The translations under genes and the position numbers were made by a program. From assembly GCA_027051265.1 (NCBI GenBank), contig JALTZH010000085.1, forward strand, positions 1-17,444: DNA of 17,444 nt. Reading direction: 5' to 3'. Positions 542 to 13,431 of the stretch are shown here, one piece after another (position 1 is the stretch's first letter; every line of letters starts with the position of its first letter). A model generated the notes under the pieces. It saw nothing but the letters and a program-made list of their open reading frames with translations, was not told the origin of the DNA and did no database searches. The stretch is from an archaeon. Lineage in GTDB: Archaea > Hydrothermarchaeota > Hydrothermarchaeia > JALTZZ01 > JALUTC01.

Positions 542-1033
542 TTATAAAAATGTTTTTTTAAGGTATTCAATCCATAGGTCCCTTTCAAGATTTGGAAAAC
601 TGTAATCTGCTATAGATACGTAAAATCTTGAGGCATTGAAAGTTTTAATTTTTGAAAAATTTCTTAGTGTTGAAAGCATTTGTATAAGAAGCTGATAGAA
701 AATTCCTACAAAAATTGCTAAATCGTAATGTTTACCGTTAAATCCTTCCCACTCTTCATCCTTTAAAAAGTTTATAAGTGTGTTTAGACTCTCGTAATGT
801 ACTTCTCTATCTCTATCCTTGAATGCAAAGAAAGTCTTTGGTGTAGTAGCAACGATTTCATACTTCGTTTTTGACAATATATCAACAGCTTGATTCTCTC
901 TGCTTAATAGTTCTCCAGCAATAATTATTGGATTCTTTGCTCTACTTATAAGTCTTTTTGCCTGCTTATAATCTATAACCATTGCATATCTATTTCCATA
1001 TGAATCTGCATGATACCATGGTTTTGTGAACAT
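542..1033 (-). CDS. cdhB: CO dehydrogenase epsilon subunit (CdhB)
   Basis: This is a 163-residue protein of the CdhB family, the small partner of CdhA in the archaeal alpha2-epsilon2 CO dehydrogenase. The family has a nucleotide-binding-like fold and is thought to help electron transfer or flavin binding. The N-terminus MFTKPWYHADSYG leads into AKRLISRAKNPIIIAGELL, which fits the usual 'A..i.rAkrPl.i.G' pattern. I chose the ATG at 1031-1033 because the AAAGGAG site at the end of cdhA is then 8 bases away. In-frame starts at 1042 (GTG) and 1039 (ATG) would lie on or within 2 bases of that site. The gene follows cdhA directly; the longer forms would overlap the cdhA stop. No other ACS/CODH subunit follows. 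Confidence 0.85.
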   Translation of the reverse strand: MFTKPWYHADSYGNRYAMVIDYKQAKRLISRAKNPIIIAGELLSRENQAVDILSKTKYEIVATTPKTFFAFKDRDREVHYESLNTLINFLKDEEWEGFNGKHYDLAIFVGIFYQLLIQMLSTLRNFSKIKTFNASRFYVSIADYSFPNLERDLWIEYLKKTFL

Positions 1034-1038
1034 CACCA

Positions 1039-3393
1039 TCACTCCTTTATATTCCTTTCTAACAACGTTGGATCAGGAATTGTCTTAGGTTTCCATCCTT
1101 TTTCTTTCAGCATCTTTAGTATCTCATCTTTATAGTTGAATGGTATTTCGTTTTCATTTCTTATGTATAGATGTAGATCGTTGGGTAATTTTCCAAAGAA
1201 TTTTTTATACAAATCTATATAATGTGCAACCTTAATCATTCTACCTTTACTGGTATCGTTTGGTCGCATAACAAGCTTTGATATCCATATCATTGCTTCT
1301 TCTTTACTCTCAGCTACAACAAGTAAATGTTCTGGAACAGGGTCGGCAACAACTCTTTTACCTGTTCTTGCATCGTATACAATCCAGTCGTTTTCTTTAT
1401 CTCTTCTACCTAATAATAATCTTCTATATTTGGCACCATGAGGTCCAAGTATAACAGGGATTCCCCACCTATTTGCACCTGTAGCAATTGCAATTGCTTT
1501 CTGTGACATCGTACCCCAAACTACAGCTACAGCACCAACTCTGTTCAAAATATAATCTGCTATAACTTCAAAGTTTCCTCTTAATGGTCTTCTTGCAAAT
1601 ATATTGGCTATCTTTATCGCTGCTCCTATTGCATGACTGTTTGCAACACATGAACCTAAATTGACTAAACATCCAGCATCAAAACTTCCCGGATACTTTT
1701 CGTATAAACTTTTTCCTTCCTCGTCTTTATAGGATGCAATTGTCATTGCAGCACATCCACTTGTAACAACTATATAATTTCGTTTGAGAAATTCTTCAGC
1801 CATTTCGCCAAGTTCTCTTGTACCATTATAATAGTTACTACATCCAGCAAACAATATAACTCCAGGAATCTCACCAAAGACTATTGGTTGACCTACTTTT
1901 CTTATTTCTGTATCTTTAATAGGTCCTCTTCCTGCTCTTATCTTACTCTTCTCATTTTTAACGATATATTCAACAGCCTTTTCCATTGCTGTAACTATCT
2001 TAATATCTTTAGGACATGAAGATTCACATCTTCCACAAGCGATACATTCTTCTCTTATTATAGATAACTCAAACAGGTTTCCATGCTTCGCTTTTTCAAT
2101 AGCCTCTGGAATCTCTAAGTTTACGGGACAATTTCTCTGACAATTGTAACATTTCGTACATTTCTTTAAATCTTCAATTACTTCGTTAATATCTGGTAGT
2201 CTTTTGTATTCATATCTTAAAGGATTTACAAGCATTGCTAACTTCACAGCAACCTCGGCAGCCTTTTTTGGATCATGTATCAATACACCAGCCTTTCCAT
2301 TACTTATTAAATCCATTATAATTTTATCAGCAGGATCGTTTGTTCTATCTTCTAAACCATGACAGGCTTTATCACTCGTTGCAATTACAAAGGATTTTCT
2401 CTTTCTTGCTTCCTCAACAACATCTGTTCTTATACATTGTTCATCGATTACGATAACATCCGCAATTCCTGCTCTTAAAAATCTTAGCTGTGCTGACATA
2501 GGGCCAATTATTTTAACTCTAGAATTTTTCCTAACCAAATCATGACTCGTGCAACATATTCCTACGACTTCAACTTTATCGTTTAAATTGTTTTTATCGA
2601 TGTAGTCTAGAATTTCAATTCCAACTATGGCATTGTGACCAATTGTTAATATCGTTGCTTTTCTCGTATCAACAACACCCATACCAATTTCTGCCAGAGG
2701 TGCATCTTCATCTCCTTTTGGATAATTATAACCAACTATCTGAGCTATATCAGCGATTTCTTTAACTAAATTATCTATCATCCCCATATGCAGAGCTTTC
2801 GATTCATAATCTATTGCAGATGCTTCTTGTCCCGTTGCTATACTAGCGAGGACGTTTGTTACTTCTTCTTCAGCATATCTTAAAGCTTCATCTAAATCTC
2901 CAAGAACTTCAGGTTTTATTCCAATTATAGTTCTCGTAATAGGTGCTTCGACGTTAATTTCTAAACCTAAATTAATTTTATAATCTCTACCAAGTTTTTT
3001 TATCAAATAATCAACCATATGTCTTGCGTGTGCTAAGTGACATGCGGTTCCAATAGTTACATGAAGACAGAATTCTCTTGCTTGTTGTGTTGTCATATCT
3101 ATGCCGCATGCTCCTTTTTTTCCTTCTGATAGATCACATTTACCAAAGACACATTTACAACAGAAATCACAAAGAGGAGAGTAGAAAGGTTTATATCTGG
3201 ATAAAAGTTTAAAGTCCCAGTTTCTTAACGTAAACACGTTTGGTTTTATCTGAGGTCCTTCTTTTTCTTCCCATGTTTCTTCTCTAACTTTACCAAACTC
3301 TAACGTAATATTTTCTCCCTTAATAATATTCGTATCCACTTTTTTAATTTTAACCAATATATTATCCATCGAAATTTTATCAAGTTCCATCAT
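1039..3393 (-). CDS. cdhA: CO dehydrogenase alpha subunit, Ni-Fe catalytic (CdhA)
   Basis: At 784 residues this is close to the usual length (about 780-810) for the archaeal CODH/ACS alpha subunit, which interconverts CO and CO2 at a Ni-Fe-S C-cluster. Visible landmarks, in order: an N-terminal cysteine group at residues 75-96; the GHNAIVG motif at 252-258 (His253 probably near the C-cluster); CC at 280-281; C320 in DEQC; two ferredoxin-type 4Fe-4S motifs, C412/415/418/422 and C450/453/456/460; then C518 (FAGCSN), C547 (SGCAAM) and C582 (GSCVANSH), all placed as expected for C-cluster ligands. The motifs are intact, so the enzyme should be active. The start overlaps the upstream frhB-like stop by four bases (ATGA); a second ATG follows immediately. 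A GGTGAT site lies 5 bases before the first ATG. Translational coupling with the F420-type gene is likely. Confidence 0.95.
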   Translation of the reverse strand: MMELDKISMDNILVKIKKVDTNIIKGENITLEFGKVREETWEEKEGPQIKPNVFTLRNWDFKLLSRYKPFYSPLCDFCCKCVFGKCDLSEGKKGACGIDMTTQQAREFCLHVTIGTACHLAHARHMVDYLIKKLGRDYKINLGLEINVEAPITRTIIGIKPEVLGDLDEALRYAEEEVTNVLASIATGQEASAIDYESKALHMGMIDNLVKEIADIAQIVGYNYPKGDEDAPLAEIGMGVVDTRKATILTIGHNAIVGIEILDYIDKNNLNDKVEVVGICCTSHDLVRKNSRVKIIGPMSAQLRFLRAGIADVIVIDEQCIRTDVVEEARKRKSFVIATSDKACHGLEDRTNDPADKIIMDLISNGKAGVLIHDPKKAAEVAVKLAMLVNPLRYEYKRLPDINEVIEDLKKCTKCYNCQRNCPVNLEIPEAIEKAKHGNLFELSIIREECIACGRCESSCPKDIKIVTAMEKAVEYIVKNEKSKIRAGRGPIKDTEIRKVGQPIVFGEIPGVILFAGCSNYYNGTRELGEMAEEFLKRNYIVVTSGCAAMTIASYKDEEGKSLYEKYPGSFDAGCLVNLGSCVANSHAIGAAIKIANIFARRPLRGNFEVIADYILNRVGAVAVVWGTMSQKAIAIATGANRWGIPVILGPHGAKYRRLLLGRRDKENDWIVYDARTGKRVVADPVPEHLLVVAESKEEAMIWISKLVMRPNDTSKGRMIKVAHYIDLYKKFFGKLPNDLHLYIRNENEIPFNYKDEILKMLKEKGWKPKTIPDPTLLERNIKE

Positions 3394-4478
3394 AGTAAAT
3401 CACCGAGATGTTTTAAATGGAATGGTAGATAACTAATAATCTTATTTTTAACTTCTTTAATATTTTCATCGAATTTTAACTTTGAAAGTTTTTCTATCGA
3501 CAATATATCAACGTTTTCTTTTAAATCTATATCTTTTTGTTTTAAAATTTTGTCGAGAAACATTTCTCCGTTTTCTGTTCTTATGATAATTGTCGAATAA
3601 CCTTTATCCGAACCAACCGATCCAACACTAAGATCAGCCATTCTTGCAGGAAAATCTATGCAATAGTTGCAACCAAATCTTTTATATCTTCTAACTTCTT
3701 TTAAAGGTATTTTTTTAACACCATCTGGAAGATATACGTAGAAATATTTTCCTTTTATATCTACTTTTCTTATGGAGTCTAAATTTATTGAATACTTTTC
3801 TCCTATTAAATCCGTAAATAACTCATAAAGAAAATTACTTTTACAGAACAATCCAATGATTAATTTGATGTTTTTTGTTAAATCAACTTCTCCAACCTTA
3901 TTAAACTGAAACTTTCTAATTGCTTCTATTTGACATGGAAGCGCAACAACAGCAACTCTTTCATATTTTAAAGAGTCCTTAAGAAGATATAAAACATTAC
4001 TCATAGTATATTTAGTACCAGCTGCCTTTACGACATCGTCTGCATTGGTTACAATTTTTGGATAGGCTTTTTGTTTCTCATGAAATGTTACCAATGCAGC
4101 ATCTATTAAATCATTTTCCAGCAAGTATTTAAGGATATAAGTAACTGCACCTCCATCTTGTCCCTTTATGTTTGTTTTCATTGCTATGATTTTTTTATAA
4201 TATCCAAGCAGATTCGTTTCATATTTTCCAAAGAGTTTTTTTTCGATCTCTTTTCTCGAAATATCACATCTCGGACAAACTTCTAAACAATAGCCGCATT
4301 TCGTACAATTTCCATCGAGATACGGATATTCGTCGAATTTAATAACATCTTCTGGACAAACTGCCTGACATATGCTGCACCCTGAGCAAAAATCGTTCAA
4401 TATTACAAAATATTCGAGAGCTTTAAAACCTTCTTCCTTACCAACAATTTTGTAGTTGATAACCATAAAACAATACAT
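3390..4478 (-). CDS. FrhB/FpoF-type F420-handling iron-sulfur flavoprotein paired with CODH
   Basis: The 362-residue protein has two N-terminal 4Fe-4S motifs (C31/34/37/41 and C58/61/64/68) followed by the coenzyme F420 hydrogenase/dehydrogenase beta-subunit domain. Typical family marks are GQDGGAVTYILKYLLE (from about residue 107), AGTKYTMSNV, ALPCQIEAIRK, IGLFCKSNF and a late C-x2-C followed by ADLSVGSVGS. Members bind FAD and move electrons between F420 and iron-sulfur clusters. Being the first gene of an overlapping operon with cdhA and cdhB, its likely role is to pass electrons between CODH and F420. This is inferred from position. The start is uncertain: ATG at 4478 or the one four codons later (4464-4466); no good ribosome site precedes either, so the mRNA may be leaderless. 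Relatives that use other partners (formate, glutamate synthase, sulfite reductase) cannot be excluded from sequence alone. Confidence 0.85.
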   Translation of the reverse strand: MYCFMVINYKIVGKEEGFKALEYFVILNDFCSGCSICQAVCPEDVIKFDEYPYLDGNCTKCGYCLEVCPRCDISRKEIEKKLFGKYETNLLGYYKKIIAMKTNIKGQDGGAVTYILKYLLENDLIDAALVTFHEKQKAYPKIVTNADDVVKAAGTKYTMSNVLYLLKDSLKYERVAVVALPCQIEAIRKFQFNKVGEVDLTKNIKLIIGLFCKSNFLYELFTDLIGEKYSINLDSIRKVDIKGKYFYVYLPDGVKKIPLKEVRRYKRFGCNYCIDFPARMADLSVGSVGSDKGYSTIIIRTENGEMFLDKILKQKDIDLKENVDILSIEKLSKLKFDENIKEVKNKIISYLPFHLKHLGDLL

Positions 4479-4528: not shown

Positions 4529-5704
4529 TCATTCCTTTTCCTTAAGCAAATTCAATATCTCTATTTTGAGTACATTTTTTATTAGAGTAAAGTATACACT
4601 TAGAATTGCTACGAAAACTGTTACAAGTATTGAAATCAAAAACGTATTGATAACATTTATTCCTAAGAATGTTTGAAACGTAACCATGAATTTAGGTAAA
4701 ATATAGAGAGAAATATATATTGATAATACCATACCAATAATAGAGGAAGGAATTATTAGAAGCAAAAGTTCATACATGAACAACATAAAAACGGATTTGT
4801 TCGTTACTCCTAATGCTTTGTAGATACCAATTTCCTTTTTTCTTTCGTTTACAGATATTGAAATGATCGTTGAAATTATTAGTAGGAACATTGGAATTAC
4901 AAGAACAACTATTGCTATTAAAGAATTAGAAAGGCTTTGAATGTAACTTCTAAAATGCTTCCCGAGCTCTCCCTTTTTTATAATTTCAACCTCAGGGAAT
5001 TCACTTCTTATCCTTTCAGCGAATTTATTTGGATCGACATTTGGTTTTAATTTAATATATATGACAGAGATCTCATCTCTGTTAACTACAACATACGGAT
5101 TCTTACCTATTATATCGTTTAAGTCATCAACACTAATGTAAAGTGCATAATCCAATCCAGTTCCAGTTTCTCTGAGATTTGTTGTTAATTCGAATTCTTT
5201 TCCATAGAGATATGCGGTATCGACTTCATATCCAAGAATTGCATACCAAGCTTCTAATCCAGCGTAAGCAGTGCCTGGTGTTAACTCTATATTTTTTTCT
5301 AGGAATGGTTTTATTATAAAATCAGTTCTTGGATCTATTGCTATTACCTGAACATCAGCAACTCCACAACATAATGCGGGTAAAGTTACCAGGAATACTT
5401 GATAGGTTATTTTTTCGATTTCATCATAATTTTTTAATTTTTCATATATATCTTTTTTCATATAAAAGGTTCTCAACTCCCAGGCAAACAAGAATTCATC
5501 TAACAATGTTTCAGAACCTTTTGGAACTAGAACCAAATCAGCTCCAAGTTTTTCGTTTACAATTTCTATATTTTTATTAATAGTACTTGTAGTGATTGAA
5601 ATGAAAGAAATGATAAACGACAAAAGAATCACAGATAATATGATAATGATGCTTCTTAACATGTTCCTCCTAATATTTTTAAGAGCTATTGAGAGTAATC
5701 TCAT
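4529..5704 (-). CDS. FtsX-like ABC transporter permease (Cys-Cys form)
   Basis: The 391-residue membrane protein has the MacB/FtsX layout: an N-terminal transmembrane helix (about residues 15-40), a large extracytoplasmic domain (about 45-255), then three helices near 260-285, 300-330 and 355-385. The cytoplasmic ISVNERKKEIGIYKALG loop typical of FtsX permeases lies between the second and third helices. The external domain carries GADLVLVPKG and AIDPRTDFIIKP, both also present in the paralogue at 6501-7637. A vicinal cysteine pair, C112-C113 (PALCCGVAD), is found only here. The gene is divergent from the ATPase and second permease, and the two permeases probably form a heterodimer with that ATPase. 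The substrate is unknown; this class usually works on lipoproteins, lipids or envelope proteins rather than importing solutes. Its stop is 51 bases from the frhB-like start, so read-through into the CODH operon is possible. Confidence 0.85.
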   Translation of the reverse strand: MRLLSIALKNIRRNMLRSIIIILSVILLSFIISFISITTSTINKNIEIVNEKLGADLVLVPKGSETLLDEFLFAWELRTFYMKKDIYEKLKNYDEIEKITYQVFLVTLPALCCGVADVQVIAIDPRTDFIIKPFLEKNIELTPGTAYAGLEAWYAILGYEVDTAYLYGKEFELTTNLRETGTGLDYALYISVDDLNDIIGKNPYVVVNRDEISVIYIKLKPNVDPNKFAERIRSEFPEVEIIKKGELGKHFRSYIQSLSNSLIAIVVLVIPMFLLIISTIISISVNERKKEIGIYKALGVTNKSVFMLFMYELLLLIIPSSIIGMVLSIYISLYILPKFMVTFQTFLGINVINTFLISILVTVFVAILSVYFTLIKNVLKIEILNLLKEKE

Positions 5705-5730
5705 AAAAAAATTAAAAATTTTTAGCTTAA

Positions 5731-5748
5731 AGATTATAACTTTTAATA
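5731..5748 (-). promoter_or_regulatory. TATA-like element for the minus-strand permease
   Basis: On the minus strand this reads TATTAAAAGTTATAATCT. Its TTATAAT core is about 30 bases before the ATG at 5704, which would make the transcript leaderless or nearly so. It lies in the 111-base gap between the divergent transporter genes. Confidence 0.3.
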
Positions 5749-5763
5749 TTAAATTAATTCATC

Positions 5764-5776
5764 TTAAATATATAAT
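5764..5776 (+). promoter_or_regulatory. TATA-like element for the ATPase-permease pair
   Basis: TTAAATATATAAT lies about 45 bases before the ATG at 5816 in the divergent intergenic region. Spacing suits a TATA box with a leader of about 20 bases. The whole gap is so AT-rich that the exact box is uncertain. Confidence 0.3.
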
Positions 5777-5815
5777 ATTGAATTTTTTTAACTTTTAAGC
5801 AATTTTAAAAAATAC

Positions 5816-6523
5816 ATGAATAATAGAACAAAAATAGAAACCAAAAATTTAACAAAAATTTATGAAAGAGAAGAGGAAAAGTTCATAGGTGTTTATGATA
5901 TAAACCTAACAATTAACGAGGGAGAATTTGTTGGAATACTAGGCCACTCTGGTGCAGGAAAAACTACGTTACTAAGTTTAATGGGTGGATTAATAAAACC
6001 TACGAAGGGTAGTGTTTACATAAATAACGTTGATATATTTAAGCTGGATGATAATGAATTATCTCATTTTAGAAACAAAAACATAGGTTTTATTTTTCAA
6101 TACTCGAGTTTAATTCCAAACTTTACTGTGATGGAAAACATTTTACTTCCGATAGTTTTCTCAAAGGAAAAGAAAAACTTAAGAGAATATGAGACAAGAG
6201 CTAAATATTTTTTAGAAAGGTTAGGATTAAAGGGATATGAAGACAAATATGCATATGAATTATCGGGTGGTGAGCAAAGAAGGGTTGCAATAGCTAGAGC
6301 TTTTATAAACAAACCAGAGATAATATTGGCAGATGAACCAACTGCAGATTTGGATGAAGACACGGAATTGAAAGTGTTAAAATTCTTCAGAGAAATCCAA
6401 AGAAAGGAGAATCTAACATTTGTTTTGGTAACGCATAGTACAGAAATTGTTGATTTGTGTTTATGTGAAACAGTATACTATATGAAGAAAGGAAGAATTT
6501 ATGATAAAAAGATTATTGCTTGA
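5816..6523 (+). CDS. ABC transporter ATP-binding protein, LolD/MacB class
   Basis: The 235-residue ATPase has every standard motif in order: Walker A GHSGAGKTT (residues 43-51), Q-loop Gln95 (FIFQYSS), signature LSGGEQRR (149-156), Walker B IILADEPTADLDE (169-181) and switch His207 (VTHS). The 'ADEPTADLD' form and the partner genes place it in the LolD/MacB/FtsE group, which uses ATP for mechanical work across the membrane with FtsX-type permeases. It overlaps the second permease by 23 bases, so the two are translated together. It is also the only ATPase near the divergent permease at 4529-5704, and probably serves both. No periplasmic adaptor of the MacA type is present in the window. Confidence 0.92.
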   Translation: MNNRTKIETKNLTKIYEREEEKFIGVYDINLTINEGEFVGILGHSGAGKTTLLSLMGGLIKPTKGSVYINNVDIFKLDDNELSHFRNKNIGFIFQYSSLIPNFTVMENILLPIVFSKEKKNLREYETRAKYFLERLGLKGYEDKYAYELSGGEQRRVAIARAFINKPEIILADEPTADLDEDTELKVLKFFREIQRKENLTFVLVTHSTEIVDLCLCETVYYMKKGRIYDKKIIA

Positions 6524-7637
6524 ATTATCTATAAGAAACATAAATAGAAGAAAACTTAGATTTCTTTTAGTGTTCATTCCAATATTTATATTGACGTTTA
6601 TTTTTACATATCTTCTCGTTATATCTCAAATATTCTTATACAGCTTAAACGAGCTTTCACTCAAAATTGGACAAGCCGATATAGTTGTTGTTCCAATGGG
6701 TTCTTTGGTTGAGAATGAAGATTTTTTGCTTGAAGGAAATCTTAGACCATTTAAGTTAAATCCCGTATTTTATGATAAGATTAAGAATCAATTTAAAGAT
6801 GAAATAGAAAGAATAACCTATCAAATCTATTTGGAAAATCTAGATGGAATAGCATTGATAGCAATAGATCCAAGAACAGACTTTATAGTTAAACCATTGC
6901 TTGAGAAAAAGGTAGAGCTTGGAGAATTTGAAGCATATGTTGGAGCAAAAGCCTTTGAAAAATTAGGTGGAAAGGATTCTGTGGAAATATATTCTAAGAA
7001 ATTTAGAATCGTATCAAAATTAAAAGAAACGGGAAGTGGTTTAGACTATGCAATATTCGTAAGAGTCGATGATATTAAAAAATTGAAAGATATAGATTAT
7101 ATATCCGTTATATATATAAGAGCTAAACCTGAGGTTGATTCTGAAATATTGGCTTATAAAATAGAAAACGTTTTTGTACAGGTTGATACTGCACATCTGA
7201 CAAAAATGGGAAAGAAAATAAAAAAATCGATAAACGATTTAAACAATATTCTTAAGTTTATGTTTTTAATCTCAATTATATTATGTATTCTATTAATATA
7301 TAATATATATTCAATAATAATAAATGAAAGACGGAAAGAAATAGGTATATTAAAAGGATTAGGTGCTAGTAACAAAGATGTTTTAAAATTGTTGCTTTTA
7401 GAGGGATTCCTAGTATGCTCGCCAGCATCAATTTTTGGTAGCGTTGTAGCAATTATTCTCTCATACTTAACGTTGTTAAAATTCTTTAAGTTAATCTTTG
7501 TTAAGATACCTGTTACGGTGTTTATCTTTGTTCCTTTATCCTTGCTTATAAGTATAACGATAACATTCCTCGGTATTTATATCACATTCTCTAAAATAAG
7601 AAGATTTGATATACTATCATTATTAAAGAGCATCTAA
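6501..7637 (+). CDS. FtsX-like ABC transporter permease (paralogue without Cys-Cys)
   Basis: The 378-residue protein has the same plan as the permease at 4529-5704: one N-terminal helix (about residues 18-45), an extracytoplasmic domain, three C-terminal helices and the INERRKEIGILKGLG cytoplasmic loop. Shared signatures in the external domain are ADIVVVP, IERITYQIYLE, AIDPRTDFIVKPLLEK and KETGSGLDYA, so the two are clearly paralogues. The segment that holds the vicinal cysteines in the other copy is shorter here (ENLDGIALIAID) and has no cysteine. The start overlaps the ATPase gene by 23 bases. Two different permeases with one ATPase suggest an asymmetric heterodimer, with the cysteine-bearing subunit doing something specific such as metal or thiol binding. 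The substrate is unknown. Confidence 0.85.
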   Translation: MIKRLLLELSIRNINRRKLRFLLVFIPIFILTFIFTYLLVISQIFLYSLNELSLKIGQADIVVVPMGSLVENEDFLLEGNLRPFKLNPVFYDKIKNQFKDEIERITYQIYLENLDGIALIAIDPRTDFIVKPLLEKKVELGEFEAYVGAKAFEKLGGKDSVEIYSKKFRIVSKLKETGSGLDYAIFVRVDDIKKLKDIDYISVIYIRAKPEVDSEILAYKIENVFVQVDTAHLTKMGKKIKKSINDLNNILKFMFLISIILCILLIYNIYSIIINERRKEIGILKGLGASNKDVLKLLLLEGFLVCSPASIFGSVVAIILSYLTLLKFFKLIFVKIPVTVFIFVPLSLLISITITFLGIYITFSKIRRFDILSLLKSI

Positions 7638-7874: not shown

Positions 7875-9101
7875 ATGTTTGATAAAAGTGTTGCTAAAAA
7901 AGTATTTATACTAGTACTTGCTTTTGGAATTATTCTTTTAGCTGCATGTGCACCTCCACCAAAACCAGAAGAAAAAGCTCCACCACCAGAGAAAAAACCA
8001 CCTGAAGAAAAACCAGCTCCTCCACCTCCTAAAGAAAAGATAGTTTATACAGGTACTGTTTATGTTGCTGGTATGGGAGGTCACTTTGCAGTAGCTGAAG
8101 TAGAGATAGATCCAACAAATGAAGAAGAACCTATAAAGATTAAGAATTTGAACAGAATAACATTGATGGGTGAAGGAGGAATTTATGGTACAAAAATGGC
8201 AACCCATGATCCAAGAATTGATTATGAAAAACATAGGATGTATTATACAACTTACGTAGATGATGGTACTGGTCATTTCCACTATGGATACGTTGATCTA
8301 AAAACCGGTGAAGTAAAAGTTGATAAGAAGTTCAAGATTCCAGAAGGTGCAAAGAAACCATTTGGATGTGCTTCAGGACAAACTCCTAAATACTTCGTAC
8401 CAACGATAATGTCATATCCAGGATTCATATTAGTAATTGATAAGGAAACGATGGAAGTTGTTAGAAAGGTAGATATACCAACCACTGATCCATTCCCAAA
8501 AGCTTATTGTTGGTACCATGGATATAACAGCCCAGATTATAAGTATTATCTACTAACTGTAACTGAATGTGAAGAAGGAAATAACTTCAAGACAGCAACA
8601 GGAAGAGTATTTGTATTCCTACTTGACCTAAATGCATTGGTTGAAAAAGGTGAAATCAAACTAGTCAAAGATCCATTGATAATAAAAGGAGAAGCCATGA
8701 AAACTGCTAACTTCAGAGGATATTTCACACCAGACGGTAAATACGTATTACAATCTGGTAGAGATAGATTCTTCGTAATCGATGTCGAAAAGTGGGAAGT
8801 ATACGATGAGAAAATCCTAACAGCTGAAGGATTACCAGAAGGTTCTGAAGCACACGATGTTATGCCAATTGACAACAGGTATGCTCTTGTTACAATAAGA
8901 CTACCAATTGAAGAAGCAGGTAAAAAGGTTAAGGATGGTACGATATTGTTATACGATATTCAGAATAAGAGAATAATAGGAAAACCAGTTTCAACATGTA
9001 AAGCATGCCATGCTAAAATTGGCGTTGGTGTCGGTAAATCTGCTATACTCTGTGGTATCGATGGGCACGGTACATTCAAGAAAACAACTGTAAAAGAGTA
9101 A
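7875..9101 (+). CDS. Lipoprotein with beta-propeller-like domain and one c-type haem site
   Basis: The 408-residue protein starts with a signal peptide and lipobox LLAAC (lipid-bearing Cys25). A proline/glutamate/lysine-rich tether of about 30 residues follows, then a body of repeated strand-like segments that looks like a YncE/YVTN-type beta-propeller (FILVIDKETMEVVRKVDI, RFFVIDVEKWEVYDEK, ILLYDIQNKRIIG). Near the C-terminus is one CxxCH haem site, C375-K-A-C378-H379. It should sit on the outer face of the membrane. A GGTGAT site 3 bases before the ATG supports the start. TTC is favoured over TTT much more than in neighbouring genes, which may reflect high expression. It precedes the DsrHEF-like genes and a multihaem cytochrome, so an electron-transfer or sulfur-compound-binding role is plausible. 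I do not recognise a named family; cytochrome cd1-like propellers are the nearest idea. Confidence 0.75.
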   Translation: MFDKSVAKKVFILVLAFGIILLAACAPPPKPEEKAPPPEKKPPEEKPAPPPPKEKIVYTGTVYVAGMGGHFAVAEVEIDPTNEEEPIKIKNLNRITLMGEGGIYGTKMATHDPRIDYEKHRMYYTTYVDDGTGHFHYGYVDLKTGEVKVDKKFKIPEGAKKPFGCASGQTPKYFVPTIMSYPGFILVIDKETMEVVRKVDIPTTDPFPKAYCWYHGYNSPDYKYYLLTVTECEEGNNFKTATGRVFVFLLDLNALVEKGEIKLVKDPLIIKGEAMKTANFRGYFTPDGKYVLQSGRDRFFVIDVEKWEVYDEKILTAEGLPEGSEAHDVMPIDNRYALVTIRLPIEEAGKKVKDGTILLYDIQNKRIIGKPVSTCKACHAKIGVGVGKSAILCGIDGHGTFKKTTVKE

Positions 9102-9113
9102 AATAATCTTACA

Positions 9114-9132
9114 ATTTTTATTTTTTTATTTT
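9114..9132 (+). terminator. T-rich terminator after the haem lipoprotein gene
   Basis: A T-rich run broken by single A residues starts 13 bases after the lipoprotein stop and ends 13 bases before the dsrH-like ATG. It fits an archaeal oligo-T terminator. If it works, the abundant lipoprotein message would be partly separated from the downstream sulfur genes. Confidence 0.4.
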
Positions 9133-9145
9133 AACTAGTTTTAAT

Positions 9146-9430
9146 ATGACCTTTGCAATTCTAATACATTCTTTAAATTTTGATCCCGAAATTTTTGAGA
9201 GACTAAATCTAGAAGATATGAGAATCGTCTTAGTGCAAGATGGTGTATATCATGCAACGATTGAGAATTCTCCGATATTTAACAAAAACGCAAAGATTTA
9301 TGTTCTCGAAGAAGATTTAATAGCAAGAGGTATCAAAAAGGAAGAGATTAAAAAAGATATCGAAATAATAAACTATTCAAAACTTGTTGATCTAATAATG
9401 CAAGAGTTTGATAAAATCGTTTGGTATTAA
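9146..9430 (+). CDS. dsrH: DsrH/TusB-like sulfur relay protein
   Basis: The 94-residue protein has the DsrH/TusB layout: a VLVQDGVYHA segment (about residues 29-38), YVLEEDLIARGI (about 50-61), then IINYSKLVDLIMQEFDKIVWY at the end, matching the family's closing 'id...fVdLv.e.dkv..W' pattern. DsrH and TusB form the heterohexamer DsrE2F2H2/TusB2C2D2 that receives sulfane sulfur. Here the order is H-E-F, and all three members are present within about 1 kb. No ribosome site precedes the ATG, so the transcript may be leaderless. No cysteine is visible in this subunit, so it should not itself carry persulfide. Confidence 0.75.
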   Translation: MTFAILIHSLNFDPEIFERLNLEDMRIVLVQDGVYHATIENSPIFNKNAKIYVLEEDLIARGIKKEEIKKDIEIINYSKLVDLIMQEFDKIVWY

Positions 9431-9442
9431 AGGTGAAGAAAT

Positions 9443-9802
9443 ATGGGTACTTTAATGATAGGTATATTAACTCGCCCCTATGGTTCTTCTAACTGGAATT
9501 TTGTTATAAATCTAGCAAAGGCTGCCATTGAAAAAGGTCATAAAGTTAAGATATGGTGTTCTGGAGATGCTACATATATATTGAAGAAAAAACAGAAAGA
9601 ATTTGCAAGAAAATATCATTATGAACCTAAGATAAAAGAGTTAATCGAGAAAGGTGTTGAAATAGTTGGTTGTGAGTCGTGTCATTTAATGAGAGGAATC
9701 TCTGAAGAAGATTTCATCGAAGGAATAACATCAAAACCCATGACATGGTTCTTTGAAAATTTGCTCAAAGCTGATAAGGTTTTGTTTATTGGTGAGGAAT
9801 AA
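9443..9802 (+). CDS. dsrE: DsrE/TusD-like sulfurtransferase
   Basis: The 119-residue DsrE-family protein contains GCESCHLMRGI, with Cys77 and Cys80. One of these sits where TusD/DsrE carry the conserved persulfide cysteine (near residue 78), followed by the family's RGI. The N-terminus MIGILTRPYGSSNWNFVINLAKAAIEKGHKV is the usual first strand and helix; the start could also be the second Met four codons later. An AGGTGA site at 9431-9436 supports the ATG at 9443. It lies 12 bases after dsrH and overlaps dsrF by one base (TAATG). Role by family: it accepts sulfane sulfur from or passes it to TusA, which is encoded downstream at 12104. Confidence 0.8.
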   Translation: MGTLMIGILTRPYGSSNWNFVINLAKAAIEKGHKVKIWCSGDATYILKKKQKEFARKYHYEPKIKELIEKGVEIVGCESCHLMRGISEEDFIEGITSKPMTWFFENLLKADKVLFIGEE

Positions 9803-10197
9803 TGGCTAAAAAAGTTTTTATTCTTGTTAAAACAAACGTAAAAGAAGAGGTTCCATATTTGGGTGTGGATCATGCAATGGGTGCAATGGCTACATTAATC
9901 GGTGAAGAAGAATTCGAAGCAACCGTAGCTTTTGTAGGTAGTGGTGTTCTTAACTGTATAAAGGGACAGAAGTTTTTGGATATTTATAACGTTGAAAGTA
10001 TAGAGGATGTTATAAAATTAGCTTTGGGTAGTGATGTTAAAATATACATATGTAAGGAAGATATGGAAAAATATAAGATAAGTGAAGACTCGTTAGTTGA
10101 TGCAAAAGATATGGGAATAGAAGCAACAATCGAGGTTAAGTCTTGGAACGAAATACAAGAAGAAATGAAAAAAGCGGACTATGTTTTCTTCTTTTAA
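9802..10197 (+). CDS. dsrF: DsrF/TusC-like sulfur relay protein
   Basis: The 131-residue DsrE-superfamily protein completes the H-E-F trio. Visible features are FILVKTNVKEEVPYLGVDHAMGAMATLIG at the N-terminus, a GSGVLNCIKGQKFLDIYNVESIEDVIKLAL stretch (about 47-76), and ICKEDMEKYKISEDSLVDAK, which parallels the 'v..eSl..RGl' segment of TusC/DsrF. Cys52 and the ICKED cysteine (about residue 75-80) are candidates for sulfur binding, but the DsrE-like CxxC is absent. A GGTGAGG site at 9791-9797 drives the start, which overlaps the dsrE stop. Its 3' end overlaps the out-of-frame start proposed for the next cytochrome gene. Confidence 0.75.
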   Translation: MAKKVFILVKTNVKEEVPYLGVDHAMGAMATLIGEEEFEATVAFVGSGVLNCIKGQKFLDIYNVESIEDVIKLALGSDVKIYICKEDMEKYKISEDSLVDAKDMGIEATIEVKSWNEIQEEMKKADYVFFF

Positions 10198-10314
10198 ACT
10201 TTTTTTGTAATATTTTTTTTAATTTTAATTATAAATTCGAACTCAAATATTTTATCTTCGTTACAAATTATTCCAAATTCTTCATGTATATATTGTCATT
10301 CAAATCTAACACTG
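10181..10314 (+). other. Out-of-frame signal peptide and first haem site of the multihaem cytochrome
   Basis: The cytochrome frame stays open upstream of its first ATG to the dsrF stop at 10195-10197, but contains no usual start codon there. It encodes a hydrophobic stretch (FFVIFFLILII) and then CIYCH at 10285-10299. In a neighbouring frame an ATG at 10181 gives M-F-S-S-F-K-L-F. This joins the hydrophobic stretch exactly if one T is added, or a -1 slip occurs, at the seven-T run 10200-10206. The joined product is a textbook signal peptide with Lys6 followed by a hydrophobic core. This may be a sequencing homopolymer error, a recent mutation, or slippage at a C-TTT-TTT-G site. Confidence 0.7.
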
Positions 10315-11940
10315 ATGAAAAAGTATCCTCAGTTCTTAATTAAATTGGAAGAAGTATGGAACCAGAGTAAAATGTTCAGAGAGGGGGTGGGTGGAGTAAC
10401 ATGTAGTGACTGTCACTTAGGAAATCCGTTTGAATATGAGAAACAAAAAGCTCATGAAGGTTTACTTTCTCTTATCATTGTTGGTAAAGATAAACTCTTA
10501 CCATTGAATAGAAGCTTTTATCCACAAATAGGTATATATTCAAATCTCTTACCAATATATTTGATCAAGGATCCTTCTATTATTAAAACAATTTTATATC
10601 ACGATCGTGATAAAAAAACGTATGAGTTTCGTATAGATATAGCTAACAAAACCTGTGGCAAATGTCATCGAGATATCGTGGAACAATATTCAAAGAGTGT
10701 TATGGGAGGAGTAAGATTTCAATCTCAATATGTAAACTTTACTTATCCTGCACCACATGACTGTGGTTATTGGCTTAAAAACTTTACTCTGATAAAGAAT
10801 CAACTTCTTGTAGATTATACTAGAGAACAAGCAGAACTTAATAGAAGAGTATGTAACCAGTGTCATGCTTCATGTTTGGATTGTCATTATGATCCATCTA
10901 AAGGTAGACATTATTTCTCAAGAAATGTGGATGCAAAAACTTGTTACTATGGTGGTGGTAGAGGTATATGTCACTCTGGAGCTGAGGAATTTAGAAGAGG
11001 TGGATATTATTTTAAAGGTATCTTTACAAACATGGAAGATATTCACGCATCAAAAAATATGTCATGCCTTGAATGTCATAATTTCATAAACCATAACGTT
11101 ATCAGAAAAGCAACGTGTAGAAATTGTCATACAAAAATAGAGAGAAAATTATCCCTAGGTGTGCATAGGAACTTAACTTGTGAAGCTTGTCACATTAGAA
11201 CGCTTGGTGGATACCAGATTGTTGTTTGGGGTCCTGGATATTATTGGAACATGTATACACCTCTATCAAAACATAAGTATTATGGCATCATGGAAAAACC
11301 TCTTCTCATAAAAAATTTACAAGGAAAATGGATCCCTGTAAAACCTGTTATACATTTTACGTTAAATATAAATGAATCGTTAAACAAAACAAAACTATTG
11401 TTTAGAGTAATTAAAGGAAGGAATTTTTCAAACGATGCTTATATAATTTTTGGTACGTATAAATTCAACAACATTTCGTTTATATCTTGGCTTCAGATGG
11501 ATAAAGTTTCTCATGGTTATAATAGAGCAAGAGATTGTTTGGATTGTCATGCAACAACCTCTCAGGAAATATTATCCAGTTGGATTTTTAGTAACTTACA
11601 TGCACCAAATGTTAAACCGTTTAAAGGTTATGTCAAAATAATTTCAAACGAAACTGGTCTTTATTTAACAGTAATATCAAATACTTCATTAGAGGAATAT
11701 CCCAATAGATATGATTTTGCACCATGGCTTCTCGTCAATAGATTTTATTCGAACGAATCTTTCACGATGCCAAAAATTTCAGAGTTCTGTGATTTGAGAA
11801 AAGATTGTACCTCATGTCATGCTGATCCTCATAAAACAACAAATCCAAAATATATGAAATTAAGAAATACTTTTTTAATAATACTTATAACTGTAATAAC
11901 TTTAACGTTCTTAATCTTATTTATCAGAAGCATGCGTTAA
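10315..11940 (+). CDS. Membrane-anchored multihaem cytochrome c
   Basis: The visible frame encodes 541 residues with nine CxxCH sites, starting at residues 30, 114, 180, 187, 251, 268, 289, 408 and 498. There is also a possible wide site with C210 and C219-H220 (eight residues between the cysteines). A further CIYCH just upstream of the first ATG belongs to the same protein, giving ten standard sites. The C-terminus has one transmembrane helix (about 519-537) followed by basic residues, so the haem domain should face outward with a tail anchor. The true start is probably ATG 10181 with a one-base shift (see the entry for 10181-10314). The haem-free stretch 294-407 may be a binding domain. It lies between DsrHEF and TusA/YedE, which suggests a redox step on sulfur compounds or electron exchange with an outside acceptor. 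I do not recognise it as a known sulfite, nitrite or hydroxylamine enzyme. Confidence 0.85.
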   Translation: MKKYPQFLIKLEEVWNQSKMFREGVGGVTCSDCHLGNPFEYEKQKAHEGLLSLIIVGKDKLLPLNRSFYPQIGIYSNLLPIYLIKDPSIIKTILYHDRDKKTYEFRIDIANKTCGKCHRDIVEQYSKSVMGGVRFQSQYVNFTYPAPHDCGYWLKNFTLIKNQLLVDYTREQAELNRRVCNQCHASCLDCHYDPSKGRHYFSRNVDAKTCYYGGGRGICHSGAEEFRRGGYYFKGIFTNMEDIHASKNMSCLECHNFINHNVIRKATCRNCHTKIERKLSLGVHRNLTCEACHIRTLGGYQIVVWGPGYYWNMYTPLSKHKYYGIMEKPLLIKNLQGKWIPVKPVIHFTLNINESLNKTKLLFRVIKGRNFSNDAYIIFGTYKFNNISFISWLQMDKVSHGYNRARDCLDCHATTSQEILSSWIFSNLHAPNVKPFKGYVKIISNETGLYLTVISNTSLEEYPNRYDFAPWLLVNRFYSNESFTMPKISEFCDLRKDCTSCHADPHKTTNPKYMKLRNTFLIILITVITLTFLILFIRSMR

Positions 11941-11958
11941 ATATTAAATGTAAAAACA

Positions 11959-11980
11959 AATAAGTATATCGTTACTTATT
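11959..11980 (+). terminator. Hairpin after the cytochrome gene, possible terminator or operator
   Basis: AATAAGTA (11959-11966) and TACTTATT (11973-11980) form a perfect 8-base stem with a 6-base loop, 18 bases after the cytochrome stop. A short T-rich stretch follows at 11989-11994. It could end the cytochrome message or act as an operator for tusA. Confidence 0.35.
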
Positions 11981-12049
11981 GTATGAAGTTTTTCTAAACA
12001 ACAGGAATATAAGATATATTTAATATTAAATTCAGTGCTTATCATGTTC

Positions 12050-12065
12050 AAATATTTAAATATTT
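12050..12065 (+). promoter_or_regulatory. Palindromic TATA region ahead of tusA
   Basis: A perfect 16-base palindrome, AAATATTTAAATATTT, lies 39 bases before the tusA ATG and 28 bases before the GGTGAT site at 12094-12099. It contains a TATA-like core in the right place, and its symmetry would also suit a dimeric regulator. In such AT-rich DNA it could be chance. Confidence 0.35.
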
Positions 12066-12103
12066 TAATACAAACATTTGTTAAATAATTATTGGTGATT
12101 TAA

Positions 12104-12364
12104 ATGACTGAGGTTGAAATTCCAAACGTTGGTAAAGTAAAGATTGACAGAACAATAGATTGTAAAGGCATGGTATGTCCAAGACCCCAACTTGAAGTAA
12201 AAAAAGCCATTCAGTCAATGAAATCTGGTGAGGTTGCTGAAGTTTTAATAACAAATCCACCTTCTGTAAGATCTGTCACGGAAATAATTAAAAAAATGAA
12301 ATGTGAACTTCTAGCGAATGTAAAAGAAGGTAATGTATTCAAGCTATACTTTAAAAAATTATAA
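12104..12364 (+). CDS. tusA: TusA-family sulfur carrier protein
   Basis: The 86-residue protein carries the TusA/SirA signature DCKGMVCPRPQLEVKKAI (residues 19-36), with Cys25 in the CPxP motif as the persulfide-bearing residue. The remainder gives the expected two-layer fold (SGEVAEVLITNPPSVRSVTEIIKKMKCELL). TusA moves sulfane sulfur between proteins, typically with DsrE/TusBCD. A GGTGAT site at 12094-12099 supports the start. It opens a three-gene unit with two YeeE/YedE genes, the first of which starts 2 bases after the stop. Fusion or adjacency of TusA with YeeE/YedE is common and points to handling of sulfur brought in through the membrane. Confidence 0.92.
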   Translation: MTEVEIPNVGKVKIDRTIDCKGMVCPRPQLEVKKAIQSMKSGEVAEVLITNPPSVRSVTEIIKKMKCELLANVKEGNVFKLYFKKL

Positions 12365-12366
12365 AC

Positions 12367-12870
12367 ATGAAGAAACTAAAAGAAATATTAACTGCTGAAA
12401 TAGATTATAAAAAAGGTGGAATAATTTTAGGAATATTATTAACTCTACTCGTAATACCAGTATTTGGATATAAAAAAGCATGGGCATTTGCAGCAGGTTT
12501 GAGATGGATTGACAAAACAATATTATCAGCAATCTCTCCTACTACTGTTGAGAACGTTCCTTTCTGGAAAATAATGAAAGCCAGTTTTGATGTATTCATA
12601 ATGCTTGTATTCTTTGTACTAGGTAGCTTCGTTGCAGCTGTTCTTTCAAAAGAATTCGTTGTTAGTATGGATAAAAAGTTTCTACCGGAATCTGCAATAG
12701 GCGGCTTCCTAATGGGTATTGGAATAGTATTAATTACGACATGTAACGTAGGATGTTTCCTAAACGGATTACCACAGCTTAATCTAGGTGCAATCATTGC
12801 AATTATTGGCTTAATAATAGGAACTTACATAGGTGGAAAATATTATGAGAAAAGGGTGATGAGTGGATAA
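12367..12870 (+). CDS. YeeE/YedE half-transporter 1 (sulfur-compound permease)
   Basis: The 167-residue membrane protein has about four hydrophobic segments (roughly residues 18-36, 75-95, 108-124 and 138-155). It carries the conserved glycine/cysteine motif GGFLMGIGIVLITTCNVGCF (about 111-130), with Cys125 and Cys129. This is typical of the YeeE/YedE family (DUF395), where cysteines relay thiosulfate or sulfane sulfur across the membrane. Bacterial YeeE is a single chain of about 350 residues; here two half-length proteins are encoded side by side, as in other split members. It starts 2 bases after tusA with no clear ribosome site, which suggests coupled translation. Confidence 0.85.
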   Translation: MKKLKEILTAEIDYKKGGIILGILLTLLVIPVFGYKKAWAFAAGLRWIDKTILSAISPTTVENVPFWKIMKASFDVFIMLVFFVLGSFVAAVLSKEFVVSMDKKFLPESAIGGFLMGIGIVLITTCNVGCFLNGLPQLNLGAIIAIIGLIIGTYIGGKYYEKRVMSG

Positions 12871-12885
12871 GTTGGTGGATGTGTT

Positions 12886-13431
12886 ATGAGCGAATCTTTT
12901 ATAGCTGCTGCAATCTTTGGTTTTATACTTGGATATGTTGTACAGAGATCAAGATTTTGTATGACCTCAGCCATTAGAGATTATTTACTGTTTAAGGTTA
13001 CCACGAATTTAAAATTCGCATTAATAATATTAACGATAATCACGTTTACATATACTCTAATGCTAACGTTCAACGTATTCAAACCAACACCAATTCCCGC
13101 TGGGTGGTTTAGTTTTGTAGGTGGATTACTCTTTGGAATTGGAATGGCTATAGCAGGGGGTTGTGTTATATCAACCTTTTCAAGAATAGGTCAGGGAAAT
13201 ATAAACTATGTTGTAACTGCAGTATTTATGTTGCTTGGAATATTCGTAGGAAGCTATTTATTCGTTATAATGCCAAACGCTTTACCACCAAGAACAGAAC
13301 TATTCGGATATAAAGCAGGATTAGTATGGCTTGATAAGTTATTTGGAATACCTCCTATTGTAATAGGTATAATATTAACAATAATATTCTTAGCAGCATA
13401 TATATATCTTGAGAAAAAAGAGTCTATCTAA
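12886..13431 (+). CDS. YeeE/YedE half-transporter 2 (sulfur-compound permease)
   Basis: The 181-residue membrane protein has the first-half signature of YeeE/YedE: GFILGYVVQRSRFCMTSAIRD near the N-terminus (Cys25) and a second motif, GGLLFGIGMAIAGGCVISTFSRIGQGN (Cys93). The latter matches the family's 'G..fG.Gm.laGgC..g.l.r.g.Gn'. About five hydrophobic segments are visible. It follows half 1 by 15 bases with a GGTGGA site at 12873-12878. Together with half 1 and TusA it should form a channel that takes up thiosulfate, polysulfide or a similar species and delivers sulfur to TusA; the substrate is not readable from sequence. Confidence 0.88.
   Translation: MSESFIAAAIFGFILGYVVQRSRFCMTSAIRDYLLFKVTTNLKFALIILTIITFTYTLMLTFNVFKPTPIPAGWFSFVGGLLFGIGMAIAGGCVISTFSRIGQGNINYVVTAVFMLLGIFVGSYLFVIMPNALPPRTELFGYKAGLVWLDKLFGIPPIVIGIILTIIFLAAYIYLEKKESI

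Follow-up and report, generated by a model that had tools for sequence, protein, structure and literature searches.

The YTD cluster, in which yeeE and tusA accompany a type II dsrEFH set, is reported in complete form only from Desulfobacterota and Nitrospirota, and no anaerobic disproportionation has been observed in archaea (PMC12998232). Archaeal type II copies lie with dsrMK or qmoAB, and the proposed link between YTD clusters and sulfur disproportionation is poorly supported (PMC13293266). Sulfur transfer from TusA through DsrE(FH) to DsrC has been shown in vitro for cable bacteria (PMC13293266), and YeeE, TusA, Dsr proteins and multihaem cytochromes are transcribed in Desulfurivibrio during Fe(III)-coupled sulfide oxidation (PMC12545173). 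Kato et al. (2019) found no DsrEFH in metagenome-assembled genomes (MAGs) of Hydrothermarchaeota (PMC6759336). Here we describe an eight-gene block at positions 7875 to 13431 of contig C85 (JALTZH010000085.1), the whole of which, 17,444 bases, is called the window below. The contig belongs to a 1.46-Mb Hydrothermarchaeia MAG (G000; 95% complete), and the closest named relatives of the organism, an uncultured archaeon of hydrothermal habitats, are Ca. Hydrothermarchaeota. The block is genuine and conserved, and represents a new form of the DsrEFH-TusA-YedE relay; its sulfur parts are already known, and their combination with two haem proteins looks new.

Family calls on the window proteins were made with Pfam and NCBIfam models and their cut-offs, and identities are those to the counterparts in G021, a genome of another family in the same order. 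The block, and a cytochrome b gene beyond it, comprise the following features.

7875..9101, + strand: lipoprotein-like seven-bladed beta-propeller with one haem site (CKACH), first gene of the block; AlphaFold2 (AF2) model with a predicted local distance difference test score (pLDDT) of 80.4; 58% identity
9146..9430, + strand: DsrH/TusB-family subunit without cysteine; PF04077, 54.9 bits; TIGR03011, 60.6 bits (cut-off 49.2); 56% identity
9443..9802, + strand: DsrE-family subunit with putative active Cys77; PF02635, 60.9 bits (cut-off 22.7); 79% identity
9802..10197, + strand: second DsrE-family subunit, in the DsrF/TusC position; PF02635, 33.8 bits; 66% identity
10198..11940, + strand: membrane-anchored multihaem cytochrome with 10 CxxCH and 1 CX8CH by motif map, start codon unclear; 60% identity
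11941..12103, + strand: 163-bp gap with a possible second promoter, suggested by the gap length
12104..12364, + strand: TusA; PF01206, 74.8 bits; 73% identity
12367..12870, + strand: C-terminal half of YedE/Sulf_transp; PF04143 profile positions 180-310; 75% identity
12886..13431, + strand: N-terminal half of YedE/Sulf_transp; PF04143 profile positions 1-154; 81% identity
13737..14672, − strand: cytochrome b, b6/ExtP-like, a possible partner outside the conserved block; PF00033, 87.8 bits

When the window was compared with 37.9 kb of contig G021:C90, all eight genes were found to recur with order and strand kept. The other window genes had no match in that 37.9 kb, and none of the window's cytochrome b, Cdh and ABC genes has a counterpart near the G021 block. 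The conserved unit begins at 7875 and not at 9146, where the preliminary description had opened it. The contigs carrying dsrAB in the two genomes share just dsrA and dsrB, so general synteny is poor while the block has been held together; the eight-gene arrangement is more than chance. Gaps between successive block genes are 44, 12, −1, 0, 163, 2 and 15 bases, and from these lengths we infer that 9146-11940 forms one transcription unit and that TusA-YedE perhaps forms a second.

The three DsrE-family subunits connect the block with the Dsr pathway. The DsrH protein has PDB matches to TusB (2D1P) and DsrH (2HY5). The DsrE protein has 119 residues, with Cys77 in a column common to all 17 sequences of the DsrE-type alignment, and it scores 16.1 bits against the DsrE/TusD equivalog TIGR03012, below the cut-off of 89.25. 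The second DsrE-family protein matches the TusC/DsrF equivalog TIGR03010 weakly (22.3 bits, below 94.15), and the name DsrF, used in the preliminary description, is valid only in the sense of a third DsrE-family subunit by position; its PDB matches to the respiratory syncytial virus (RSV) fusion glycoprotein were discarded as chance. Presumptive type II sets in G011 and in G013 (another family) have no NCBIfam match and are ~12 residues short in the DsrE alignment. Judged by its sequence against these presumptive sets, the window trio resembles a divergent type I set and is nearer DsrEFH type I than type II. Because of the TIGR03011 match, the long DsrE with Cys77 and the sub-cut-off scores of DsrE and DsrF, we treat the set as type-I-like rather than as a YTD member. 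Ca. Pyrohabitans and its relatives (G006, G001 and G010) carry an orthologous trio immediately in front of dsrM-dsrK, with identities to the window of 30-36% for H, 57-61% for E and 44-50% for F; DsrK in G006 scores above its NCBIfam cut-off. Since this orthologous trio stands before dsrMK, the window trio belongs to the Dsr pathway.

Related sets occur in other arrangements. At L210 (8871-10710) and L211 (8679-10543), a short type-II-like set and a long type-I-like trio stand back to back and divergent, followed by dsrMK. A TusA-DsrE-DsrH cluster occurs at L214, L215 and L216 (~9300-11100) in other archaea, methanogen-like by reading, with no cytochrome in the neighbourhood examined. G021 also carries, at L212 2-3070 (− strand), an edge-cut cytochrome frame with 23 CxxCH in 1023 aa; another DsrH-E-F trio, the second in this genome, and a thioredoxin-like gene lie ~6 kb away.

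The YedE gene is in two parts, with the C-terminal half first. The halves score 58.8 and 92.3 bits against PF04143 (cut-off 27), and their best likeness is to the thiosulfate transporter TsuA equivalog NF052577, at 48.7 and 68.4 bits, below its cut-off of 400. Besides the TusA gene of the window, the genome has four others. The families proposed for DsrH, DsrE, TusA and the two YedE halves thus all have Pfam or NCBIfam matches over cut-off, and the presence of a YedE, TusA and DsrE set in an archaeal host is borne out.

The same genome carries dsrA (442.7 bits; cut-off 392.85) and dsrB (447.3 bits; cut-off 341.5) on contig C48, so the earlier remark that no dsrAB is visible nearby holds for the window only. 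The survey of the genome for sulfur genes that the preliminary description had envisaged recovered dsrAB and neither sat (no PF01747 match) nor aprA (none above noise; TIGR02061 24.2 bits, below 641.75), the absences resting on profile searches of an incomplete MAG. No sulfate activation genes were found in the window's order; G021 and G022, a genome of the same genus as the window, have dsrAB, a canonical DsrC and DsrK with no sat or aprA. As dsrAB is present and sat and aprA were not found, the oxidised end of the cytoplasmic pathway would be sulfite, not sulfate, which is compatible with oxidation ending at sulfite or with sulfite/thiosulfate respiration. The genome also encodes on C13 (L299 3891-6954) a molybdoenzyme of 830 aa with a DmsB-like iron-sulfur subunit and no evident signal peptide; its score lies between formate dehydrogenase and Psr/Phs, and it is not assignable to sulfur.

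The cytochrome had been described as a ten-haem membrane protein. It is multihaem and membrane anchored, with a C-terminal transmembrane (TM) helix at residues 551-579, but the count changes: ten sites are found when the gene is read from 10315, whereas the open frame extends back to 10198, immediately after the stop codon of the second DsrE-like gene, and from there contains 11 possible haem sites (10 CxxCH and 1 CX8CH). The haem-binding residues of the first motif, CIYCH (nt 10285), are invariant in 32 of the 32 relatives in the family alignment and a signal-like hydrophobic stretch precedes it, which argues that the frame reaches upstream of 10315. No ATG, GTG or TTG start lies upstream of 10315 in this frame, which leaves a rare start codon or a base error in a homopolymer as explanations; T-rich homopolymers at 10195-10318 suggest the same alternatives, and the G021 cytochrome has an ATG near the equivalent place. 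The family has motifs that are invariant in the 32 relatives, CX8CH included, and an invariant free cysteine, Cys189. A catalytic free cysteine in octahaem tetrathionate reductase (OTR) would fit Cys189, which is a lead only. A full-text literature search on 'CX8CH' found no cytochrome paper.

The AF2 model of the cytochrome has a pLDDT of 71.6, low around CX8CH. Its predicted octahaem core matches OTR 1SP3 with a Z score of 9.3 (262 residues, root-mean-square deviation 5.3, 18% identity; next best Z 2.0), and the aligned range, residues 135-533, holds the last eight family-wide haem sites. Foldseek returned no match to the model at E<=0.001. The window protein has no match to the OTR family model TIGR04315, which 4 of the 32 relatives match weakly (best 1.2e-5), and PDB sequence matches to nitrite reductases were short and CxxCH-driven only. 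MmcA of Methanosarcina is OTR-related yet serves as an electron conduit (PMC11024163), and by that analogy an OTR kinship leaves the function of the window cytochrome unfixed. In the cytochrome tree, the window and G021 sequences group at 100/100 within a clade of eight archaeal sequences, and the relatives from bacteria, chiefly Geobacterales but also Nitrospirota, branch together as a single distinct group. Matches of relatives to the NCBIfam models for ExtN and ExtO were not taken as membership, the cut-offs and the full-cluster context being against it. One relative, in Desulfuromonadales (L050 1917-17810), is accompanied by a putative twin-arginine translocation (TAT)-type oxidoreductase, a 12-haem cytochrome, a Rieske protein, a cytochrome b and a 4-haem protein.

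The propeller protein has no Pfam or NCBIfam match. Its predicted fold reaches Z ~20 to thiocyanate dehydrogenase, N2O reductase and hydrazine synthase beta, and also to unrelated propellers, and because of that tie we claim no enzyme activity for it. Homologues of 47-50% identity lie near dsrAB in G007 and G008; with the dsrMK neighbours of the trio, they tie trio and propeller to Dsr independently of the window.

Linkage was compared across the 8 loci of the class that hold an orthologous cytochrome and across 35 loci from bacterial genomes. A haem-propeller gene lies within ~2.3 kb of the orthologous cytochrome in all eight genomes of the class. The preliminary description would have been refuted if homologous clusters never kept the cytochrome with YedE and TusA; that refutation fails, narrowly, as YedE/DsrE genes lie within 5 kb of the orthologous cytochrome at three of the eight class loci (G000, G021 and G013), while none of the 35 bacterial loci links YedE, TusA or DsrE to a cytochrome relative. 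The sole TusA seen among the bacterial loci (L051) is ~7 kb off, beside other genes. In G013 the cytochrome lies ~2-4 kb from the YedE/DsrE cluster, in the order cytochrome-Rieske-cytochrome b, followed by a DsrE set that looks like type II, together with YedE and TusA; this linkage, the single case among the remaining genomes, could be a chance coincidence. The combination of genes in the block suggests a tie between sulfur chemistry within the cell and electron transfer beyond it; extracellular electron transfer, as the preliminary description worded it, is possible but not supported.

Outside the conserved block, the window's cytochrome b has as its best NCBIfam match ExtP (NF040969) of the Geobacter selenite/tellurite cluster (126.5 bits, below 290), and no Rieske gene adjoins it; homologues follow a Rieske gene and a multihaem cytochrome in G011 and G013. 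A CO dehydrogenase operon adjoins the block at window 542-4478 on the − strand, with cdhA (1148.8 bits; cut-off 781.3), cdhB-like and FrhB-like genes. A paralogue of the cytochrome adjoins homologous cdhAB in G009 and G010, and the window's own genome has a paralogue on C59. At 4529-7637 lies a MacB-type ATP-binding cassette (ABC) transporter with an ATPase and two FtsX permeases, one of the latter encoded on the other strand. Comparable permeases or transporters neighbour the propeller genes of G007, G008 and G011, and in G006 they occur close to YedE loci.

Taken together, the chances seem about evenly balanced that 7875-13431 encodes the intake arm through which a Dsr pathway acquires sulfur, along with the redox partner of that arm outside the cytoplasm, and its sulfur-carrier proteins probably feed the organism's own sulfite reductase. 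YedE would let sulfane sulfur (polysulfide or thiosulfate) across the membrane, TusA would take it as a persulfide, and Cys77 of DsrE, in a DsrEFH-like trimer, would accept the sulfur from TusA and pass it by way of a DsrC-type protein to DsrAB. The anchored cytochrome and the one-haem propeller lipoprotein might exchange electrons across the membrane, perhaps through a Rieske/cytochrome b unit, and would carry or catalyse an external redox step. The analysis itself shows which genes are present, that the block and the cysteine are conserved, and that the genome has dsrAB but no sat or aprA match; complex formation, cargo, direction, electron path and the joining of all steps in this archaeon are what we infer here. 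A fuller version is distinctly more tentative: that one archaeal operon combines sulfane-sulfur import and delivery to a reductive-type DsrAB with an OTR-like anchored undecahaem cytochrome and a haem-propeller, coupling extracellular electron transfer to the anaerobic oxidation of sulfur as far as sulfite (or to respiration of sulfur oxyanions outside the cell), and that the CX8CH haem may serve as an unusual active site. Several observations weigh against an intake arm of this kind. The genome's only DsrC/TusE homologue (L259 3892-4215) scores 51.2 against a cut-off of 53.5 and has a TusE-like tail, IAGIPKCGCL, in which the penultimate Cys is kept, the second conserved Cys is replaced and an extra Cys lies two residues before. 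No dsrK was found in this ~95% complete MAG. DsrL is reported to be absent from Hydrothermarchaeota (PMC7596348), whose DsrAB fall at the base of the bacterial reductive type in published trees (PMC10504309). In G022 the trio stands at a contig end with a ThiF gene upstream instead of the propeller.

The same genes might serve reduction. The cytochrome would then reduce sulfur oxyanions outside the cell (tetrathionate to thiosulfate, or a like reaction), with YedE importing thiosulfate, TusA/DsrEFH taking its sulfane sulfur, DsrAB taking sulfite, and CO or H2 as donor. The structural match to OTR over residues 135-533, well clear of the next best, the four relatives that match TIGR04315, the likeness of the YedE halves to TsuA and the Cdh operon in the window all point this way; however, the window cytochrome itself lacks a TIGR04315 match, the TsuA scores are far under 400, Foldseek found nothing for a model that is weak around CX8CH, and MmcA is OTR-related yet an electron conduit (PMC11024163). 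We regard this account as possible but doubtful. It is rather unlikely that the cytochrome and propeller serve as an outlet for electrons like the Geobacter ext system, linked to Rieske/cytochrome b and used for metals, CO or other purposes, with their joining to sulfur genes a matter of co-regulation or drift. Relatives do adjoin Rieske and cytochrome b genes in G011 and G013 and ext-like genes in L050, the window's cytochrome b is most like ExtP, no bacterial locus of the 35 shows the sulfur linkage, and the paralogue sits beside cdhAB in G009 and G010. Yet the eight genes are conserved exactly in G021 with no cytochrome b, Cdh or ABC genes near, and a third genome, G013, joins the cytochrome to a different YedE/DsrE cluster.

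Two further explanations concern the sulfur genes. The trio, TusA and the DsrC/TusE-like protein could be a TusABCDE-type relay for tRNA thiolation or cofactor sulfur that lies beside the cytochrome by coincidence, as the TusB score of DsrH, the TusE-like tail and the ThiF neighbour of the G022 trio would allow; we think this improbable, given that three other genomes have the orthologous trio beside dsrMK, and that the genome itself has dsrAB and four other TusA genes. Sulfur disproportionation, to which the preliminary description had linked sets of this kind in bacteria, has in its favour that YedE, TusA and DsrE stand together. DsrH scores as type I/TusB, however, DsrE has type I length and Cys77, the subunits are not recognisably type II, no sat or aprA was found for making sulfate, the YTD link is itself poorly supported (PMC13293266), and the process has not been observed anaerobically in archaea (PMC12998232). 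The label 'YTD-like' fits, while a sulfur disproportionation module is weakly supported, the trio being nearer type I than type II, and we consider such a module very improbable here.

The presence of a DsrEFH-like trio, accompanied by dsrMK in some genomes and by TusA-YedE in others, alters the sulfur use possible for Hydrothermarchaeota relative to the earlier account (PMC6759336). Should relay and cytochrome act jointly, the block would give archaeal gene-cluster evidence for sulfur chemistry coupled to external electrons, for which the bacterial precedent, with Fe(III) oxide and sulfide, is recent (PMC12545173). Dsr without Sat/Apr makes a testable case in which sulfite rather than sulfate would be the end product or starting point. 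The analysis also delimits a family of cytochromes in which a CX8CH motif is invariant, and of which the full-text literature search found no description.

Compared with known systems, the block resembles YTD/yeeE-tusA-dsrEFH type II clusters (PMC13293266, PMC12998232) in grouping YedE and TusA with a DsrEFH-like set of three subunits, with dsrAB located elsewhere in the genome; it differs in being archaeal, in its type-I-like trio and split YedE, in the propeller and cytochrome inside the block and in having no sat/aprA match. With DsrEFH type I (Allochromatium) and TusBCD (E. coli) it has in common a DsrH over the TusB/DsrH cut-off, the active-Cys column and three adjacent subunits, whereas its DsrE and DsrF are far below the equivalog cut-offs, its order is H-E-F, its DsrH has no Cys and its phylum has no reported DsrL. 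The archaeal dsrEFH-dsrMK sets (type II in PMC13293266; with the window-type trio in G006, G001 and G010) have the orthologous trio, which in the window is joined to propeller, cytochrome, TusA and YedE in place of dsrMK. The predicted octahaem core of the cytochrome recalls OTR 1SP3 and MmcA; the window protein adds to OTR two N-terminal haems, a C-terminal haem, a TM anchor and one CX8CH site, and lacks a family-model match. The Geobacter extHIJKLMNOPQS cluster (PMC5877670) likewise places a multihaem cytochrome with Rieske/cytochrome b, as in G011 and G013, and includes a sulfurtransferase-like gene (in Geobacter the rhodanese ExtH), but here no porin or selenoprotein was seen, the sulfur genes are Dsr/TusA/YedE, and the window's cytochrome b is below the ExtP cut-off. 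Desulfurivibrio, which joins Fe(III) oxide respiration to sulfide oxidation (PMC12545173), resembles the window organism in having Dsr, YeeE, TusA and multihaem cytochromes together; it is a bacterium with Sat/Apr, whereas the window presents one archaeal gene block of putative function, in a genome without detected sat/aprA.

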